Program-made: the position numbers and the translations under genes | NCBI GenBank assembly: GCA_000525675.1 | Contig: CP002190.1 | Location: 2,480,001 to 2,544,000, forward strand | DNA from: Bdellovibrio bacteriovorus W | GTDB lineage: Bacteria > Bdellovibrionota > Bdellovibrionia > Bdellovibrionales > Bdellovibrionaceae | DNA: 64,000 bases | Direction: 5' to 3' | In this document: positions 51,407-63,676 of the stretch, in pieces | Layout: every line of letters begins with the position of its first letter | Numbering within the stretch: the first letter of the stretch is position 1 | Notes under the pieces: model-generated | The model's database searches: none | Told to the model about the DNA's origin: nothing | Seen by the model: the letters and a program-made list of their open reading frames with translations, nothing else

Positions 51407-51484
51407 ATTTCAATCTAGCAATTTCATTCTTGTAAAGTGATTCACCTCTGGTTTCAGCCCATAAAGAAGCCGGAGGAAAAATCT

Positions 51485-52843
51485 ATGAAAAAATCATTTC
51501 TACTTTTGGGAGCCGCTTTCACACTCGGTAGCTCCAATAGTTTGGCCCTGAGCCTCAATGAGATTGTTGGCCTTAAGCGCACGGAGTATAAATCTCCACA
51601 AGGTATTTCAGAAGTCTGCGCAACCCCTCGCAAATGGGCCGGTGCCAACTATACCGACTCCGATGCAAAAAAAGAAAACACTCTTTGTGGTTATGATTTC
51701 TATGCTACTGTCGGAATTTGCCCTAAGTATTCCTCAACCAATCCTGGGTTGATGATTATTGAACCAGATGAGAAATTTTCTAAGCAAGCCATCGACTCTT
51801 CAAGCTGTGATCTAAAAAAACTTGGCTTAAAAACCGATGCAAAATTCAAACAATCCATCACCTGCTCTTACACGCCTTCGATTCTAGGTTACTATCACCT
51901 CTCAAGAATTCTTGGTGATGTCGGCCGCGTACCTGTTTCTGTTTTCAGATCGATTGATATTAAAACCCACAAAGCACAAACCACCAAAGCTGTGAACTCT
52001 TTGCGCAATTCCAAGCTTGCGATTAAGGACTCTTGGGCAATGCTAGAGAAGGTTCATGCAAACCCACAAAACTATCCCAATCTAGTGGATCGCTCTGGTA
52101 CTCAGATGTTCGGAGCGCTTTCTGATAATGTTCGCAATGAAGAACAGTACGTAGAAGTCAGCGGAGTGGGCTCTTACGATACTCGCTATGAACGCTTTAT
52201 TAAACAAAGGCCGTATCAAATTGTCAGCAGCTCTTCAAGCCCACAACAACTTATTGGCAGCAATGAATTTACGCGAGTCGCTCAAACGGCCCTACAAATG
52301 AAAGACGTTTCCGATATGGTCATTATTGACACCCTCATGAACCAACAAGATCGCATAGGAAATATTCACTACAAATTTGTCTGGTATACGATCAATCCAC
52401 AATCTTCAACTCTGGAAAGATTCAAGTCCAAAGCAAAAATTAAAGACGGAAAAATCACCATTCCAGCTGAAGAGAAAACTGCCATGGCGAATCGCAAAGC
52501 AGTTCTATTGAAAGAAATGATCTTAAAAGATAATGACTGCGGAGTTACTAAAACTAATATGATGAGAAAGGTTTCTGCGATCGAAGGGCTTAAACACGTC
52601 AGCTACCGCACCTATGCCAATCTCTTAACCTTTGAACAGGCTCTTGCCGGAGCTTCTGCTAAAGATTTCTTCACTAAAGAACTTCTTTTCACAGAGGCTG
52701 ACTATAATCTTCTAAAACGCAACGCTCTTTTTGCTCGACAAGTACTTGTTAAAAAATGCCAATCCGGAGAACTGAAGTTTGACGTCGATCTTGAAGACTA
52801 TATCCCAGGAGCAACTCCCGTTCGCAAAGCTTGCGGAAGCTAA
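51485..52843 (+). CDS. Secreted protein with Fam20C-like atypical kinase motifs
   Basis: The ATG at 51485 has GGAGGA 8 bases upstream and starts a signal peptide (about 1-22). The 452-residue protein has three features seen together in Fam20C-type and related atypical kinases. These are a YHLSRILGDVGRVPVSVFR helix (137-155, compare FHLDRILG...VPP), a catalytic-loop-like DTLMNQQDRIGNIHYKF (D289, N293), and a later LKDNDCG (347-353) where the metal-binding D-x-G is expected. Eight or more cysteines suggest disulfides. Kinase activity is inferred, not shown; no nucleotide lysine was pinned down. It is convergent with the polyphosphate operon. Confidence 0.6.
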   Translation: MKKSFLLLGAAFTLGSSNSLALSLNEIVGLKRTEYKSPQGISEVCATPRKWAGANYTDSDAKKENTLCGYDFYATVGICPKYSSTNPGLMIIEPDEKFSKQAIDSSSCDLKKLGLKTDAKFKQSITCSYTPSILGYYHLSRILGDVGRVPVSVFRSIDIKTHKAQTTKAVNSLRNSKLAIKDSWAMLEKVHANPQNYPNLVDRSGTQMFGALSDNVRNEEQYVEVSGVGSYDTRYERFIKQRPYQIVSSSSSPQQLIGSNEFTRVAQTALQMKDVSDMVIIDTLMNQQDRIGNIHYKFVWYTINPQSSTLERFKSKAKIKDGKITIPAEEKTAMANRKAVLLKEMILKDNDCGVTKTNMMRKVSAIEGLKHVSYRTYANLLTFEQALAGASAKDFFTKELLFTEADYNLLKRNALFARQVLVKKCQSGELKFDVDLEDYIPGATPVRKACGS

Positions 52844-52867: not shown

Positions 52868-52903
52868 GAAAAAGTCGCAAGAGGAAATCCTTGCGACTTT
52901 TTA
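52868..52903. terminator. Bidirectional rho-independent terminator
   Basis: AAAAAGTCGCAAG pairs with CTTGCGACTTTTT around an 8-base loop. It lies between the kinase-like gene and the VTC gene and touches the VTC stop codon. Confidence 0.9.
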
Positions 52904-53677
52904 TCGATACAAAAATCCTGGACTTTGTACGTCCGGTCTTTGATGAAGAGTCAGCATTGAGTTACCGAACTTTGAAAATGAACCTCCCATGAGTTCAAAC
53001 TTTCGAATCAGATCAATAAACCAAAGTGGAATCTTCTTTTCACATTTAAGTTCTAGAACAACACAGGTTCCTGACTCTCCAAAAGACTCCGGATGATCGT
53101 AGTGAACCATCATTCTCTCTTCTGGAGTCACAGTCCAATCAAAGACCTCTTGAAAGCGAAGGTCTCGATCAAATGTCACTCGTGCATAATCATCAATTTC
53201 TGAGATATAGGCTTTGCGTCGATACTGAGTTAGAATCACAGGGCCGGTATTATACACCTCACGATAATTTAAGAACTCCATCAGGTTTTCTAAACCGTCA
53301 ACTCCTGTGGGTAAATCACCATCAAGGAAAGACACCCAATCATCATTCATGTATTTGGCTCTCTTCTTGCGTACAAACTCACGGACTTTATGTTTAATTT
53401 CAAAGAAGTAAGGACCACTTTTCCCATCGCCATAAGAACGAATGCGCATGTTAAAACTATAAGCCTGAGCCATTTCCTTAGCTCTCATGAGGTAGAGACT
53501 CGGTGAATCCAGATATAAAGAGTTAATCGTATAAAAGCAGTCCTTTTCAATTTGTGAATAGTAGTCCATATGACAGTATGTTTCGACATATCGAGAGATT
53601 GGATCTACCAACTCAAGGGGAATGAGATACTTGAGTTCATAGCGTTCTAAGTTTAATGGAGATACCGCAACACTCAT
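52901..53677 (-). CDS. VTC-type polyphosphate polymerase domain protein
   Basis: VTC domains are triphosphate-tunnel enzymes that make polyphosphate from ATP. The 258-residue protein is a bare catalytic domain with the tunnel residues intact: ERYELKYLI (E14, K16), R78-I-R80 (MRIRSY), E93-I-K95 (FFEIKHK), QYRRKAY (152-157), RVTFDRDLRF (R166, D170), E209-L-K211 and the SKFGNS end (K236). There is no membrane helix or SPX domain, so it must be recruited by partners. Its ATG overlaps the stop of the outer-membrane component by four bases. Last gene of a four-gene unit. Confidence 0.88.
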   Translation of the reverse strand: MSVAVSPLNLERYELKYLIPLELVDPISRYVETYCHMDYYSQIEKDCFYTINSLYLDSPSLYLMRAKEMAQAYSFNMRIRSYGDGKSGPYFFEIKHKVREFVRKKRAKYMNDDWVSFLDGDLPTGVDGLENLMEFLNYREVYNTGPVILTQYRRKAYISEIDDYARVTFDRDLRFQEVFDWTVTPEERMMVHYDHPESFGESGTCVVLELKCEKKIPLWFIDLIRKFELMGGSFSKFGNSMLTLHQRPDVQSPGFLYR

Positions 53678-54831
53678 GAGATAGGGCCTTCTTGAAAAAG
53701 AAAATTTCTTTGCGGTTGTTTTGCGAGCAACTCACTTTCTAAAAGAAACTGAATATACTGAGTATAGAGATCTATCTGAAGATCTACGGATTCTATACAC
53801 TGACTGCCTTGAGATATCTTTTCTTCAAGTTTTTCCAGAGGATCTGTAGCCGAAGTGCGTTTTAAATTTCTTTCTGAATCAATGATCTCAAAGTCTGTCA
53901 GGGTGTTCAGAAGTTTTGTTCTTAAAACACTCAATCCTTCTCTTTCTTCAAGATCCCGTTTTTTCTGCGCCCTCTTAAAAACCAATTCATTCTTTTTTTG
54001 AATAGCAGACTCGTCAGAAAATAAGAAAGGTAGCTGAATGCTGACTTGAACCTCGTACACATCTTCATCTTTCTTATTCTTCTTAGAAACTCCGATACTC
54101 TTAATCCACTGGTCTTCCTTGCCTTGAACAACTTCAATCTCTTTTTGTAGTTGATCAATCTCTTGATGCCCAAGCCTCAAACTCAAAGTTTCGATTCTTT
54201 CTAGGGGAATCTCATTCACGACAGCCTCAATTGCTTTGGCAGAAAGAAAGGGTGCTACAAAGCGGTCTTCTTCTTTAAATTTTTGCTCCCAGTGCTGAAT
54301 GAGTTTCGTATTTTGCAAAATTTCATATTCCAATTGGCGAACCAAACGTTCATTTTTCAAAGTATCTAGACGAGCCTTAGTAAAAGTCTTTCCACTGGCT
54401 CTTCCCGCCTTCAAAGAAACGCCCTGCGCCTCTGTCCAGCGCTTCAGCGAATCATGCGCTGCTTGGGCGCACTTCATTTTCTCACTTAAAAGCTTGTGCT
54501 TCATAATTGCGATATAGCGAGTGTGCAACGCCCAGCTCAGAGAAAAGCTCTCAACCACTCTCTCTGCATCTTTCGAGGTGTTTCTCAGTTTCCATTCAGG
54601 ATAGGACTTAAATTGAAACTTTAGGCCGACCTCAGTTTCCTTATTCGCATCCGTTTCTTGCGAAGCCGTAAGTTCCACATTACGAAAGGGGTTGGCCGTA
54701 CTGGGGCTTATCCGATTTGTTTGGGAAACATAGAACTCATCTGCCCATGCAGTTTTTAAGACATCATTTGTCGTGACGGCGTTACAGGAAAAGGCCACGA
54801 GCCAAATGCCAAAACCCATAATCCAATTCAT
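53674..54831 (-). CDS. TolC-like outer-membrane/periplasmic coiled-coil component
   Basis: The 385-residue protein has a signal peptide (about 1-18). The long heptad-rich helices (about 80-200 and 285-380, such as ESFSLSWALHTRYIAIMKHKLL and CIESVDLQIDLYTQYIQFLLESELLA) are separated by amphipathic strands (VYEVQVSIQLPFLF, VGLKFQFKSYP). That is the layout of a TolC-type outer-membrane channel subunit, although sequence signatures are weak and the protein is shorter than usual. The call leans on the adaptor gene just upstream, with which it overlaps by ATGA. It may be the exit channel of the polyphosphate operon (inference). Confidence 0.55.
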   Translation of the reverse strand: MNWIMGFGIWLVAFSCNAVTTNDVLKTAWADEFYVSQTNRISPSTANPFRNVELTASQETDANKETEVGLKFQFKSYPEWKLRNTSKDAERVVESFSLSWALHTRYIAIMKHKLLSEKMKCAQAAHDSLKRWTEAQGVSLKAGRASGKTFTKARLDTLKNERLVRQLEYEILQNTKLIQHWEQKFKEEDRFVAPFLSAKAIEAVVNEIPLERIETLSLRLGHQEIDQLQKEIEVVQGKEDQWIKSIGVSKKNKKDEDVYEVQVSIQLPFLFSDESAIQKKNELVFKRAQKKRDLEEREGLSVLRTKLLNTLTDFEIIDSERNLKRTSATDPLEKLEEKISQGSQCIESVDLQIDLYTQYIQFLLESELLAKQPQRNFLFQEGPIS

Positions 54832-56453
54832 AATAGAGCCCCTAGAGCAGAAGTTTCAGAGAGAAAGAAGCCTTCTGATCCTCCGACAAGAGAAAACACC
54901 GTTTCGTCTTTAAAATAGAGACTGCGCAAGTTCTTTTGCTCGAGCGATTTTAAAGTTCGATGACTCTTTTTTGTAAAATCATACAGATGAGGCATAAACT
55001 TACCAGTCTCATCAGCGACTGCGAAGAAAACGGACTCTCCACCGGCACTGCCACTAATAATATTTTTCCCAAGAAAACCATCAAGTTTTAAATGAGCACT
55101 GGCAAAGGAAGTAAGTTTCCTTACATCTTCAAGTTTATACTTTCTAAGCTCCACTTCTTCTCTAGAAAGAATCGCCAAAATAAGTGAATCTCTGTGAAGC
55201 CAAACTTCCACATCGCTTCCCTTCAACTTCTCCTGTAAGCCCGCAAGACTCACTCTCTCTAAAACTAAAAATCGATATCCCTCTCGATGGGCTTTGATGA
55301 CTTCATCAACTTTGCCAAAGCGTTTTACAAGAAAGTAGTAAGTTGATCCCAAGTTGCTCAGCCCCACAATCTCGCTCCCTTTAAGCTCTTTAAGCTCAAA
55401 GGCATGTGGAAGTACTTTTCCATTTTCTTGCAAGAGTAAGATCCCTGTGGACTGAGGGTCCTTTTGACTATAGGTCACGACGACTTTCTTTAAGTCATTC
55501 GAATAGCTTAAATTCAAAAGGCTCAAAGAATTTGAATCTAATTGAATATCCTCTGGCAAAGAGATACGGCGACTGTTCTTCGGAGAAACCTCCAAAAGTT
55601 CATCTGCCTGCGCTTCGCTCATAAGGCTGATACTTAGTTTTTTAAGGACACTGACTTTTTCGCCAACTAAGAGATTGTTGTCGGTTGGGATTTTAACGAC
55701 AACCTCTCTCCCCCATGCTGTTAGAGTTTGTATTCGTAAGAGTCTTTCCGGGATAGGAACAATACGCACCCCAATACTTACGACAGTTCCTTGAATGGCG
55801 TCACCTGACGGAGATACCACTTCAACTTTTTCGCCAATCTTAAACTTCGATTGAAGGTTTTCATTTAAGTATCCATGAACGTACATTGGTCTTAAAGGAA
55901 TCAAAGTCAAAATCGGATTAAAAGCCGAAACCAGTTCTCCGGCCTTAAAGTTAATGGCACCCACGGCTCCATCAACTTCAGAAAAAACAAAGAGATTCTC
56001 TAGGCGATTTTCTAAAACTTTTCTTTCGGCTTCTGCCTCTAAAAAGTCCGCCATCAAAGGGTCAGCTCCATCTGGTAGATCCATTTTCTCATTGGCTATT
56101 TTTGCGATGTGCTGACGAAGATTTATTTCGGCCATGAGCTTATCAATACGGCCCTTAAGAAGCCTTAGTTGAGACTCTAAGTTTTCCTGATTGAGCTCTA
56201 AGAGAAGATCCCCCTTATTAACAACTTGCCCAGGCAGAACATGGATCTTTTTTATTTCCACGGCACTGTCAAAATTTACCTGATACTCTTTGGAATCGGC
56301 CACGCCCAAAATGCGAATCGGCTCGAAACTTAAATACAAACCCACGACGATAATTGCAATCACCGCCCCCCACCAAGAAAAGAATAAAAGGCGATTGTCC
56401 TGTCCTACAATATCGTTCAACCAAGACCTTGGCGTGCTCCATATTCTTTTCAC
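54828..56453 (-). CDS. HlyD-type membrane fusion adaptor with long C-terminal extension
   Basis: The 541-residue protein starts at GTG with GAGG 8 bases upstream. It has a membrane anchor (about 23-44), a lipoyl/barrel-sandwich half (VEIKKIHVLPGQVVNKGDLLLELN), a short coiled-coil hairpin (about 85-155), the second lipoyl half (LFVFSEVDGAVGAINFKAGELV) and the beta-barrel (MYVHGYLNENLQSKFKIGEKV). About 270 further residues follow, with repeated strand-rich blocks that look like a beta-propeller. Normal adaptors end near 300-400 residues. It bridges inner- and outer-membrane partners encoded on either side. Confidence 0.8.
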   Translation of the reverse strand: MKRIWSTPRSWLNDIVGQDNRLLFFSWWGAVIAIIVVGLYLSFEPIRILGVADSKEYQVNFDSAVEIKKIHVLPGQVVNKGDLLLELNQENLESQLRLLKGRIDKLMAEINLRQHIAKIANEKMDLPDGADPLMADFLEAEAERKVLENRLENLFVFSEVDGAVGAINFKAGELVSAFNPILTLIPLRPMYVHGYLNENLQSKFKIGEKVEVVSPSGDAIQGTVVSIGVRIVPIPERLLRIQTLTAWGREVVVKIPTDNNLLVGEKVSVLKKLSISLMSEAQADELLEVSPKNSRRISLPEDIQLDSNSLSLLNLSYSNDLKKVVVTYSQKDPQSTGILLLQENGKVLPHAFELKELKGSEIVGLSNLGSTYYFLVKRFGKVDEVIKAHREGYRFLVLERVSLAGLQEKLKGSDVEVWLHRDSLILAILSREEVELRKYKLEDVRKLTSFASAHLKLDGFLGKNIISGSAGGESVFFAVADETGKFMPHLYDFTKKSHRTLKSLEQKNLRSLYFKDETVFSLVGGSEGFFLSETSALGALL

Positions 56454-56456
56454 GGC

Positions 56457-57140
56457 CTATACCTCAATCACAGATTCTTGATTCATAAAGTTCACACCTC
56501 GCATTGTCTGCACCTGAGCCAGCTGATCAATAAGATGGGCTGACGTGAAGTCGTTGCGAAGTCGAATTTGATAGGAATAATCTAAACGCCCACCTTGAGC
56601 AGTTTCACGGATCGTAGCCAAAGCAAAATGCCGGCATTGATTCTCGAGGATGAGTTCCACTTGCTTTTGTGCCTCTAGATTTCTTTCCATATTAAATCGC
56701 AACAAACCATCAAACTGTGGTCCCGTCGCAAAGTTAGCACCTCTTAAAACAAGCAATGCGCTAGCAAAACAAGCTGTTCCTAAGATGGCAATTCCATAGG
56801 CATGAACTCCAGAAGCAAGTCCGATAGCAAGAGAGGCAAAGATAAAAAACATATCTCGTGGATCTTTGACATTGGTTCTAAATCTTAAAAGAGACAATGC
56901 TCCGATCATCCCGATCCCTCTTGCCACATTGTCCCCGATGGCCTGCATCGCTATGGCGATGACAATTGGAAGCAAAACAAGTCCGTGCAGAAAGTTCAAC
57001 GAATAGGAGAGTCCCTTAAAGGTGCGCACGTAAATAATCGCAAGAACAGTTCCCAAAACAAAACTTAGCAAAAAAGCATAAACCGCAGAAATCCATGTTG
57101 GATTCATAAACGATGAATTTAGAATGGCAAAATCCAGCAT
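56457..57140 (-). CDS. DUF4956 membrane protein
   Basis: The 227-residue protein has four or five hydrophobic helices in the first 135 residues. It carries the DUF4956 signature around RGIGMIGALSLLRFRTNVKDPRDMFFIFASLAIGLASG and then a cytoplasmic domain with a ferredoxin-like pattern (VELILENQCRHFALATIRET). DUF4956 genes are often found beside VTC polymerase and CotH genes, and the membrane part is a reasonable channel or anchor for the polymerase (inference). AAGGAAAATGAA precedes the ATG. First gene of the four-gene unit; the adaptor GTG follows 3 bases after its stop. Confidence 0.87.
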   Translation of the reverse strand: MLDFAILNSSFMNPTWISAVYAFLLSFVLGTVLAIIYVRTFKGLSYSLNFLHGLVLLPIVIAIAMQAIGDNVARGIGMIGALSLLRFRTNVKDPRDMFFIFASLAIGLASGVHAYGIAILGTACFASALLVLRGANFATGPQFDGLLRFNMERNLEAQKQVELILENQCRHFALATIRETAQGGRLDYSYQIRLRNDFTSAHLIDQLAQVQTMRGVNFMNQESVIEV

Positions 57141-60781: not shown

Positions 60782-62200
60782 CTATTGTGTTAAATCTGTC
60801 CCTTGTCCTACATTTAGAACATTCCAAGCAACTTTATGCTGCTCTTCTCCTTGTTCTTTCTCGTTCTTCGCATCCGGCTTTTTTAAACTAAATTTAATCT
60901 TAGAGTTTTCGATAATGACCCGAGGGTCGGTGGAGTTATTATCGAAAATAACCAAGTTTCTAGAGGCTTGCGCTGTAACCACATGCGGATTCCAAAGGTA
61001 TTTAAAGTAAATCACCAGTGAACCCGCAAACTGACTCAAAATGAGAGCCAGCAGTCCTAAGCTAAGAAGTCCAATCTGTGGAAGAGTATTCTCCCATCTT
61101 GCGAGCTCCAAAACTTCAAATCGTGAACCGATCGAAAGCTTTTGAGCTTCGAGCTTTGCCAACGCGCCACTAAGTTCTTTGTAGCGGTTAAACTCAAACT
61201 CTGACTTCTTCTTTAAGTCCTCTACCATTTGCTGTGCAAACGGTAGGCCACGCACCTCGTTCTTAATACGGGCAGTAGTGGCCTGAACCTGTGTCAATTT
61301 TTCTGACAGGAGACTATTTTCGATCTTCAATGACTCAATTTTCCCACCCACACCATACAGCGTGCTTTCCCGCTGACCGTTGCGTCCTTTATCTAAATAA
61401 TGGATGAGGCGTTGATTCTCGGAGATCTTAAGTTTGATCTCATTCGCTCGAACGATCAATTCTGAGACATATTCACCCATCTTATCTTTAGATGCTAAAG
61501 GTAAGAGGTTTTCATCTTTGTTTTGCAACTCTGCAAGCTGCTTACTAAAATTAGCAAGCTTCACATCTGCATCTTTACGCTGTTGGGTCATGAACTCTTC
61601 GACACGGCTAATCTCTGCAAGCTCTCTCACACGCAAGGTCTCTGCTGAAAGCTCAGAAGCCGTATTCGCCAAGAAAAGCGAGACCTCTCGAAAAGGAGTC
61701 AGTGCTTCGACTTTGATTTCAAACTCTGAGCTTAAAGAAAACTTAGTCCAACGATCCAGCCTCTGAAGGAAGGCTACTCTCTCTTCAGGGCTGTTAAGAT
61801 TGCCCATTAGATCACTCTTTAAAAGTTCGAATCCTTTTTTTTCCTCCAAAGTAATTTTAGGACTCATTCCTCGGGCTTGAATACGCTGTGCGAGAGAGTC
61901 ATAGAACTCCCGTGTCTTTAAGTATTCAAGGTGCTTCGATAATAAACTATTCCCCTTCTTAGATTCTTGCAGTGCCTTCGAAAGACCGAAGAACTGCGTC
62001 GAGAAGGCTTGCATCGCCGAGTTTTGAGAGTCATTGATCACAATGCTGGATGTTGCCACATAGGGCACCTTCACAGCATAGTAAGCGGCACAGACTCCAA
62101 AGATTCCTACCAGAAAAAGTAAGAACATGCGCCAATGAGAAATATAAAGTCTGATAATTTCGCCAACACTTAATTCTGGCTCGATATGCTGATTGCCCAT
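60782..62200 (-). CDS. Wzz/GumC-type polysaccharide chain-length regulator
   Basis: A polysaccharide co-polymerase of 472 residues. The first helix (about 24-43, MFLLFLVGIFGVCAAYYAV) leads to a Wzz domain with the conserved start YVATSSIVIND. A long periplasmic coiled coil follows (about 180-370), then the second helix near 385-410 with flanking residues, and a cytoplasmic tail of about 70 residues without a BY-kinase domain. The start is placed at 62200 (MGNQHIEPELSV), with GAGGGG 5 bases upstream; the frame is open to 62308. It works with the O-antigen ligase/polymerase upstream. Confidence 0.88.
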   Translation of the reverse strand: MGNQHIEPELSVGEIIRLYISHWRMFLLFLVGIFGVCAAYYAVKVPYVATSSIVINDSQNSAMQAFSTQFFGLSKALQESKKGNSLLSKHLEYLKTREFYDSLAQRIQARGMSPKITLEEKKGFELLKSDLMGNLNSPEERVAFLQRLDRWTKFSLSSEFEIKVEALTPFREVSLFLANTASELSAETLRVRELAEISRVEEFMTQQRKDADVKLANFSKQLAELQNKDENLLPLASKDKMGEYVSELIVRANEIKLKISENQRLIHYLDKGRNGQRESTLYGVGGKIESLKIENSLLSEKLTQVQATTARIKNEVRGLPFAQQMVEDLKKKSEFEFNRYKELSGALAKLEAQKLSIGSRFEVLELARWENTLPQIGLLSLGLLALILSQFAGSLVIYFKYLWNPHVVTAQASRNLVIFDNNSTDPRVIIENSKIKFSLKKPDAKNEKEQGEEQHKVAWNVLNVGQGTDLTQ

Positions 62201-62292
62201 ATAGACCCCTCTTGAAAAACTGCGATTCAAAATGGTGAATTGAATAGCCCTTGTTTTCCCACTTTCTGAAGTCTTTGGCTCGTGTTTATTCC

Positions 62293-62306
62293 GCAATAAA
62301 TATTGC
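62293..62306. promoter_or_regulatory. Perfect palindrome upstream of the wzz-like gene
   Basis: GCAATAAATATTGC has 6-base arms and a 2-base centre, 93 bases before the wzz start. It may be an operator or part of a promoter. Confidence 0.3.
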
Positions 62307-62368
62307 ATGCGTGAAACCTACACGCAGGAAATGATTTGTTCGTTGAAAACTCGCAGGACACAGCGAAT

Positions 62369-63676
62369 TTATTTTGCCGTGACATCTCTTTCTTGAGGAG
62401 GCTCGTAGGTCCAACTGACTGAAGCTGCTGCTACAAAACCAAAAACTAACCAGTACAACCTGTCTGCCATTCCACCCAAAGATAGATGGATATGGTAAAT
62501 AATCAGAATGGGGATATGGGCGCATAGATAAATTGCAACTTGTCGTTTAAAAAGGTCCGGAGACTTTAAAGCCTTAAGCCCTCCAATAGTCATAAGCACT
62601 AAAGCAATGACTCCCATAAATAACAGAGGCCAACCACCAATCACCCCGGCGGAGATTAAAATATTGTGGGGATCTTTCATGGCATTGTAACTAGTGACAC
62701 TGACTTCTTCGCCAGCGGCAAACTTTGATGCCAAACCATGACCAAGCCACTGTGACTCTCTAAACATCTGCGCTCCACGCTCCACTTCCTCCCAACGAGA
62801 AGCAACTCCATCTTGAGCTTCACGTCCTCCAAGGGCGGCCTTTCCCATAGCGACAGATCTAACAAAGTCATAGGCCTTTAAGCCAAACAACATGGTAAAG
62901 GAAAGTGACAACGTAATAAAAGCAAACTTAAAGAGACGCCCTTGATTGGTTTTAGTTCTATGCAAAATCATTGTGAGAATAAATGCTGCGACGGCGGCTG
63001 CGGCTGATGAGCGAGTGCCTGTCAAAATGATTGCAAAAAAACTTGCCCCAATGATAAGTGCATTCCAAAGACGCTCTGTGCGACTCTTGGAATCTATAAA
63101 AGTTGTCAGAGAAAAAATAAAGGCCACAGTGGCACAAGTCACCATGTGAGGGATGTGTTTAAACACACCAATAAAACGCCCTCCTTTAAACGCGGCACCT
63201 TTAGAAAAGAAAAGCATCGCTAAGGAAATTAACACCAACACACCGGCCCAGCGTTGGATAAACTTGACGAAGCTTTTCGCATCCCATGCACTCGGAATAA
63301 CTAAACCACAAATTAAAACCATAAAAACAGACGTCACCAAGGCGGCAAGATCCATTAAGCGCGACTCGCCTCTATAGACATAGTTCATCTGTAAAAATGT
63401 TTGCGCCACTAAAAGAAGAATCAGTAGCAAACAAAAAAGCTTATAAAAACCACTGAGATGATTTCGATTCTTCATCCTCATCCACAGAAATAATAAAGGC
63501 ACTCCTGTTAAAAAACTTAAGACCACATTCAAATAGGGATGCATCCCCGCCTGAAAAAGAACGAACGAAAACGAGCGCGGCACTGGTAAGAAACCTGCCA
63601 GCGAAACCTTGGATATAAATACCAAAGAGACAAATGCCTTTATTAAAAAAACAATGCGCCCGTCTAACTTTCGCAT
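62369..63676 (-). CDS. O-antigen ligase/polymerase (Wzy_C family) membrane protein
   Basis: The 435-residue protein has about 11-12 membrane helices and a large periplasmic loop (about 270-345). The loop contains the conserved pattern SRWEEVERGAQMFRESQWLGHG, followed by the MKDPHNILI histidine, as in WaaL/Wzy proteins. TGTRSSAAAAV occurs in the helix before the loop. Whether it ligates O-antigen to lipid A-core or polymerises repeat units cannot be decided by sequence; the wza and wzz neighbours favour an exopolysaccharide polymerase. It starts 10 bases after wza. Confidence 0.87.
   Translation of the reverse strand: MRKLDGRIVFLIKAFVSLVFISKVSLAGFLPVPRSFSFVLFQAGMHPYLNVVLSFLTGVPLLFLWMRMKNRNHLSGFYKLFCLLLILLLVAQTFLQMNYVYRGESRLMDLAALVTSVFMVLICGLVIPSAWDAKSFVKFIQRWAGVLVLISLAMLFFSKGAAFKGGRFIGVFKHIPHMVTCATVAFIFSLTTFIDSKSRTERLWNALIIGASFFAIILTGTRSSAAAAVAAFILTMILHRTKTNQGRLFKFAFITLSLSFTMLFGLKAYDFVRSVAMGKAALGGREAQDGVASRWEEVERGAQMFRESQWLGHGLASKFAAGEEVSVTSYNAMKDPHNILISAGVIGGWPLLFMGVIALVLMTIGGLKALKSPDLFKRQVAIYLCAHIPILIIYHIHLSLGGMADRLYWLVFGFVAAASVSWTYEPPQERDVTAK

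Follow-up and report, generated by a model that had tools for sequence, protein, structure and literature searches.

A conserved four-gene cassette of Bdellovibrio bacteriovorus W combines a VTC-type polymerase with an envelope-spanning conduit and is a candidate polyphosphate exporter

We analyzed a 64,000-nucleotide stretch of the Bdellovibrio bacteriovorus W genome (contig CP002190.1, positions 2,480,001 to 2,544,000), referred to here as the window. Four genes lie one after another on its minus strand between positions 57140 and 52901. In the direction of transcription, they are as follows: (i) a 227-aa inner-membrane protein of the DUF4956 family (56457..57140); (ii) a 541-aa periplasmic adaptor of the HlyD/MacA type with a GTG start (54828..56453), whose C-terminal part forms a beta-propeller; (iii) a 385-aa outer-membrane channel protein of the TolC fold (53674..54831); and (iv) a 258-aa polyphosphate polymerase domain of the VTC type (52901..53677). 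A preliminary description of the locus had named these genes, and the open reading frames lie exactly where it placed them. It had also read them as one operon, and this reading is supported by intergenic gaps of 3, -4, and -4 bases and by the same order and overlaps in every one of the 14 complete genus loci.

Between the VTC gene and a convergent neighbor, a repeat search found a perfect 13-bp inverted repeat with an 8-nt loop and T-rich ends (AAAAAGTCGCAAG/CTTGCGACTTTTT, 52869..52902, assigned to neither strand). It is likely a two-way terminator serving both genes, as judged from its sequence and placement. The repeat was absent from the list returned by a terminator scan, probably because that scan counted the A/T ends into the stem. 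An Rfam search returned no RNA element within the operon, and a sigma-70 promoter scan returned fewer sites than in shuffled sequence. The convergent gene (51437..52843, plus strand) encodes a secreted protein of 468 aa as listed, with a likely true start at an ATG 16 codons in. Neither Pfam nor NCBIfam assigned it to a family. Among 16 genus genomes, relatives (strong or weak matches) were present in 11/11 with the cassette and 0/5 without it. The homologue is convergent to VTC in 11 of 14 complete relatives, and in G014 and G010 it lies elsewhere in the genome. We regard this protein as a candidate extra component of the system.

The VTC reading frame matched Pfam PF09359 with 148.2 bits (cut-off 23) over profile positions 2-235 of 235, and no other family was listed for it. 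It aligns to yeast Vtc4, and its profile found Vtc4 structures with an E value of 2e-11. The preliminary description had called it a lone soluble domain whose tunnel residues are intact. Consistent with this, the protein consists of the VTC domain alone, with no transmembrane (TM) segment and no SPX domain, and 13 of 13 checked tunnel residues are invariant in 79/79 cassette VTCs. The window protein keeps the equivalents of Vtc4 R264, R266, K281, K294, R361, R373, E426, and K458 (numbers counted from the alignment to 8i6v). R264, R266, and E426 form the triple change used to inactivate Vtc4 (PMC9911596). Since every checked tunnel residue is kept, a broken polymerase was ruled out. The yeast VTC complex synthesizes the chain in the cytoplasm and feeds it through a membrane channel of positive charge; synthesis and translocation are coupled (PMC9911596). 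By analogy of sequence, the window protein would be expected to synthesize polyphosphate from ATP.

The DUF4956 reading frame matched PF16316 with 49.3 bits (cut-off 30.6) and showed weak similarity to MgtC. A TM scan placed four hydrophobic segments at aa 20-135, followed by a soluble C-terminal domain. Two of its arginines, R86 and R88, correspond to a basic residue in 137/137 DUF4956 sequences examined, and R95, R148, and R178 are basic almost exclusively in cassette members. We found no solved structure related to the family by sequence. Our guess is that DUF4956 could serve as the inner-membrane pore for the chain.

The adaptor reading frame matched Pfam HlyD_3 with 37 bits (cut-off 22.2). 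It has the architecture of a HlyD/MacA-type adaptor: one N-terminal TM helix (aa 22-40), then a barrel-sandwich, a short alpha-hairpin, and a beta-barrel extending to about aa 275. Its structural model matched MacA (Foldseek 2.3e-11; VIA Z 14.5 over 221 residues), as well as MexA, AcrA, and EmrA. About 260 residues follow the beta-barrel (54828..55604, minus strand, aa about 284-541), and for these the structure matches were propellers, with Z about 10 and a model confidence below 50 at aa 410-507. Pfam searches with adaptor relatives pointed to the same kind of domain: Phytase-like was matched by 6 of 16 (best 1.3e-5) and DUF3616 by 7 of 16 (best 4.2e-5). The propeller of the window protein is degenerate; against all aligned relatives, it is shortened and has lost the EPSG...VISDDTD motif. 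Several cassettes elsewhere encode adaptors of about 300-370 aa that lack a propeller; hence the propeller is an accessory and not an essential part.

The TolC-like reading frame had no match to Pfam OEP, a family matched by 4 of 21 aligned TolC-like members (best 6e-6), and its profile found nothing among PDB sequences. Its AlphaFold2 model (pLDDT 84.6) has the two repeats of the TolC fold, each a beta-hairpin (aa 49-74 and 243-265) with long helices. The model matched TolC (Foldseek E 2.4e-10; VIA Z 22.2 over 373 residues), OprM, and CusC. A helical protein that merely resembles TolC was ruled out, as TolC and OprM matches scored Z 13.6-22 and the remainder Z 8 or less. On the strength of the model, we consider the protein to be a divergent but genuine TolC-fold channel protein.

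We then compared the locus across 24 genomes of the genus. A strong HlyD match was found in 16 of them, the window's included, and DUF4956 was found in the same 16. VTC was present in 15 of these, and the sixteenth locus (L043) is truncated by a contig end ahead of VTC. All three families are absent from the other 8/24 genomes, i.e., they were gained or lost together. The four-gene order is identical in all 14 complete loci, with every gap between -11 and +3. The preliminary description had proposed a search for conserved co-occurrence of the four genes, and co-occurrence proved strong both in these 14/14 loci and in other phyla (see below). The flanks of the cassette are quite different in several genus genomes, which indicates that it travels as a unit. 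Strain kdesi of B. bacteriovorus carries it, and closely related strains exist that do not. Since the order is constant in the genus and the cassette relocates as a whole, chance adjacency of the four genes was ruled out. No RND, ABC, or MFS pump gene is conserved beside the cassette in 15 genus loci, considering their neighborhoods only. In the window, Wzz-like and O-antigen-ligase-like genes and a polysaccharide deacetylase gene (60782-63676, minus strand) lie upstream of the cassette, the first two 3.6-6.5 kb away; "O-antigen-ligase-like" is our own reading of a membrane gene. This neighborhood is common to only part of the genus, and since flanks vary, we found no support for the cassette being part of a neighboring polysaccharide cluster.

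Outside the genus, we searched for the VTC family in 291 genomes of the phylum, a survey with no bias towards cassettes, and then read the neighborhoods. We identified 17 further cassette loci, of which contig ends truncate three, along with many VTC loci that have DUF4956 but no conduit. For loci outside the phylum, public genomes were scanned with a DUF4956 profile. As cassette members were used to build it, the frequency of cassettes there is biased upwards; many of the records are metagenome bins, and single taxon names may therefore be wrong. The cassette was found in Bdellovibrionota, Fibrobacterota, Spirochaetota, Nitrospirota, and Pseudomonadota (Crenothrix, Thiotrichaceae, and others), and part of the cassettes outside the phylum have the rotated order HlyD-TolC-VTC-DUF4956. 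Partial arrangements were also observed. In Myxococcota, VTC-DUF4956-adaptor is followed by an unrecognized reading frame. Ten or so loci of Bacillota have VTC-DUF4956 without adaptor or channel. Some Bacteroidota (L189, L192, L193, and L203) have DUF4956-HlyD-TolC without an adjoining VTC; one of these genomes has no VTC match, and most have VTC at a separate locus, where in two cases its neighbors are another DUF4956 gene and a large unassigned gene. A Thiotrichaceae metagenome-assembled genome (L196) likewise has a cassette without VTC.

In a tree of VTC sequences, those of the cassettes form one clade of 50 entries with 99% support, and those of Myxococcota form a second group. Only two entries of the cassette clade are labeled as having no HlyD, and both lie at contig ends. 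A count of label changes on this tree gives 4, versus 35 expected by shuffling. Over 46 cassettes, pairwise distances for any one of the four proteins correlate with those for the others (r 0.83-0.94), as expected for joint inheritance, with a contribution from shared species history.

Several cassettes have further neighbors. A PHO4/PiT phosphate transporter gene is located inside or beside the cassette in three Gammaproteobacteria, between TolC and VTC in L171 and L190 and after VTC in L165. CotH kinase, lamin-tail-domain, and secreted PPDK_N proteins adjoin some cassettes. The ATP-binding PPDK_N proteins were seen near L150, L172, L194, L199, L100, L140, and L168, and some have what looks like a lipoprotein or secretion signal at the start; an extracytoplasmic domain that uses ATP would be unusual. 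Proteins of about 1100-1200 aa that match no Pfam family are encoded immediately next to the cassettes of several marine relatives (L090:8446-11775, L096:8666-11995, L091:12058-15510, and L095:321-3920). No CotH gene is present among the listed reading frames beside the window cassette, and none is conserved in the genus loci.

Searches with two separate domains showed that PPK1 is absent from the window genome, the sole such case among 16 genus members tested, and a search for PPK2 in this genome found none. The two genes on either side of ppk1 in relatives, ppx being one, lie 38 bases apart here (G000 716.0 kb region, L224:8985-9024), and a small neighboring gene is also gone. A relative's PPK1 used as a query between the two flanking genes gave no match. 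ppk1 was lost from the window genome by a clean deletion. Exopolyphosphatase (PPX) is kept, with three Ppx/GppA homologues. Since neither PPK1 nor PPK2 is present, VTC is the only recognized polyphosphate synthase of this genome.

The preliminary description had suggested that the inner membrane is the site of polyphosphate synthesis and that the chain then crosses the envelope. Its gene identities, operon, and trans-envelope idea stand; from these we infer catalysis by VTC, a pore in DUF4956, an assembled tunnel, and an exported product. On balance, we favor the view that the four genes encode a synthesis-driven trans-envelope exporter of polyphosphate; the anatomy and conservation are as described above, and the function would follow from them in several steps. 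Cytoplasmic VTC, with its intact tunnel residues, would transfer the gamma-phosphate of ATP to the growing chain. VTC would dock on DUF4956, whose invariant arginines may guide the chain through the inner membrane. Polymerization together with the membrane potential would do the work of an RND, ABC, or MFS pump. The MacA-like adaptor would seal DUF4956 to the TolC-fold channel, an assembly suggested by the folds of the two proteins, and the pore of that channel would span the periplasm and outer membrane. More speculatively, the beta-propeller might bind or trim phosphorylated material on the periplasmic side. Polyphosphate would end up on the cell surface, be released, or serve as a phosphate donor outside the cytoplasm. 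Against an exporter we counted the Bacteroidota and L196 loci that lack VTC, the DUF4956-VTC pairs that lack a conduit, the adaptors that lack a propeller, and the close strains that lack the cassette. Because DUF4956-VTC is widespread without a conduit, the pair does not need one.

In the main rival to this reading, what passes through or is modified by the conduit would not be free polyphosphate. The exported cargo would then be a surface polysaccharide or protein, and polyphosphate from VTC would be the energy source or phosphate donor for its modification, together with extracytoplasmic kinases (CotH or secreted PPDK_N-type). The CotH, lamin-tail-domain, and secreted PPDK_N genes beside some cassettes fit such a role, as do the Wzz-like and O-antigen-ligase-like genes upstream of the window cassette and the position of CotH, polyphosphate polymerase, and DUF4956 genes next to Gram-positive pel clusters (PMC7112168). 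However, the CotH or PPDK_N neighbors are scattered, the conserved cassette has no glycosyltransferase, several genus cassettes sit in different flanks without polysaccharide genes, and the link to a phosphate transporter points to phosphate itself. We consider this rival unlikely, if still the strongest.

A second possibility is that the periplasm is where DUF4956 and VTC place polyphosphate, and that the adaptor and TolC-like protein form an accessory unit for efflux or sensing, with the propeller as a phosphate or metal sensor. The extra propeller on the adaptor and the occurrence of DUF4956-VTC without adaptor or channel in many bacteria would agree with this, but the conserved order requires both the adaptor and the TolC-fold protein, no other pump accompanies them, and it is hard to see why a complete TolC fold would be present if no chain passes through it; we regard this possibility as improbable. 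Least plausible is that VTC is another triphosphate-tunnel enzyme, such as a tripolyphosphatase, or that the system scavenges phosphate inwards: the triphosphate tunnel fold does host several activities, and the PiT importer and phytase-like propeller associations could fit phosphate recovery, but VTC is the best family at 148 bits with none other listed, the Vtc4-type residues are all kept, and TolC-type conduits are exporters in all cases known to us.

Surface and extracellular polyphosphate have been reported in bacteria, and we know of no dedicated bacterial machine for polyphosphate export. The cassette is a concrete candidate gene set for such export in culturable organisms. It also offers a role for DUF4956 and bacterial VTC, both of which lack an assigned function in Pfam and NCBIfam, and the window genome, with VTC and exopolyphosphatase and no PPK, is a natural test. 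If the exporter reading is true, a polymer-driven engine would be added to the pumps that use TolC-type channels. We put at about even the chances that the cassette represents a new class of secretion machine, in which a polymerase takes the place of the tripartite pump, an inorganic polymer passes through a continuous two-membrane tunnel, and, in the PPK1-less window organism, the machine is the sole recognized source of polyphosphate.

Each of the four proteins belongs to a known family, and the combination is apparently undescribed: we found no published account of a polyphosphate export cassette in the open-licence literature, and it may be described elsewhere. Alginate, cellulose, and Pel are polymers made at the inner membrane and exported via a dedicated periplasmic and outer-membrane route, and alginate secretion includes an adaptor-like domain in Alg44. 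We propose the same principle for the cassette, whereas those systems handle sugars with glycosyltransferases and use beta-barrel porins or OPX proteins in place of a TolC-fold channel. The closest published relative, and the only one we found, is the set of CotH, polyphosphate polymerase, and DUF4956 genes that adjoins pel polysaccharide clusters of Gram-positive bacteria as an accessory set (PMC7112168). These DUF4956-VTC(-CotH) modules share with the cassette the side-by-side placement of DUF4956 and VTC, but have CotH and DUF4832, and no adaptor or channel. Eukaryotic VTC (yeast Vtc1/Vtc3/Vtc4) shares a tunnel domain of the Vtc4 type and its catalytic residues, synthesis in the cytoplasm next to a small membrane protein, and, as a proposed principle, translocation coupled to synthesis. 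In contrast, it has SPX and fused TM domains that the window VTC lacks, its Vtc1 TM domain is unrelated in sequence to the membrane partner DUF4956, and the adaptor and outer-membrane channel are additions of the cassette. MacAB-TolC, AcrAB-TolC, and EmrAB-TolC share an adaptor of the HlyD/MacA type with one TM helix and a TolC-fold protein. Where these tripartite exporters have an RND, ABC, or MFS pump, the cassette has DUF4956 and a polymerase instead, and its adaptor, unlike theirs, carries a C-terminal beta-propeller. The cassette may function as a yeast-type VTC mounted on such an exporter, but with no SPX domain, no fused TM domain, and no RND, ABC, or MFS pump, it is neither a VTC complex nor a tripartite exporter.
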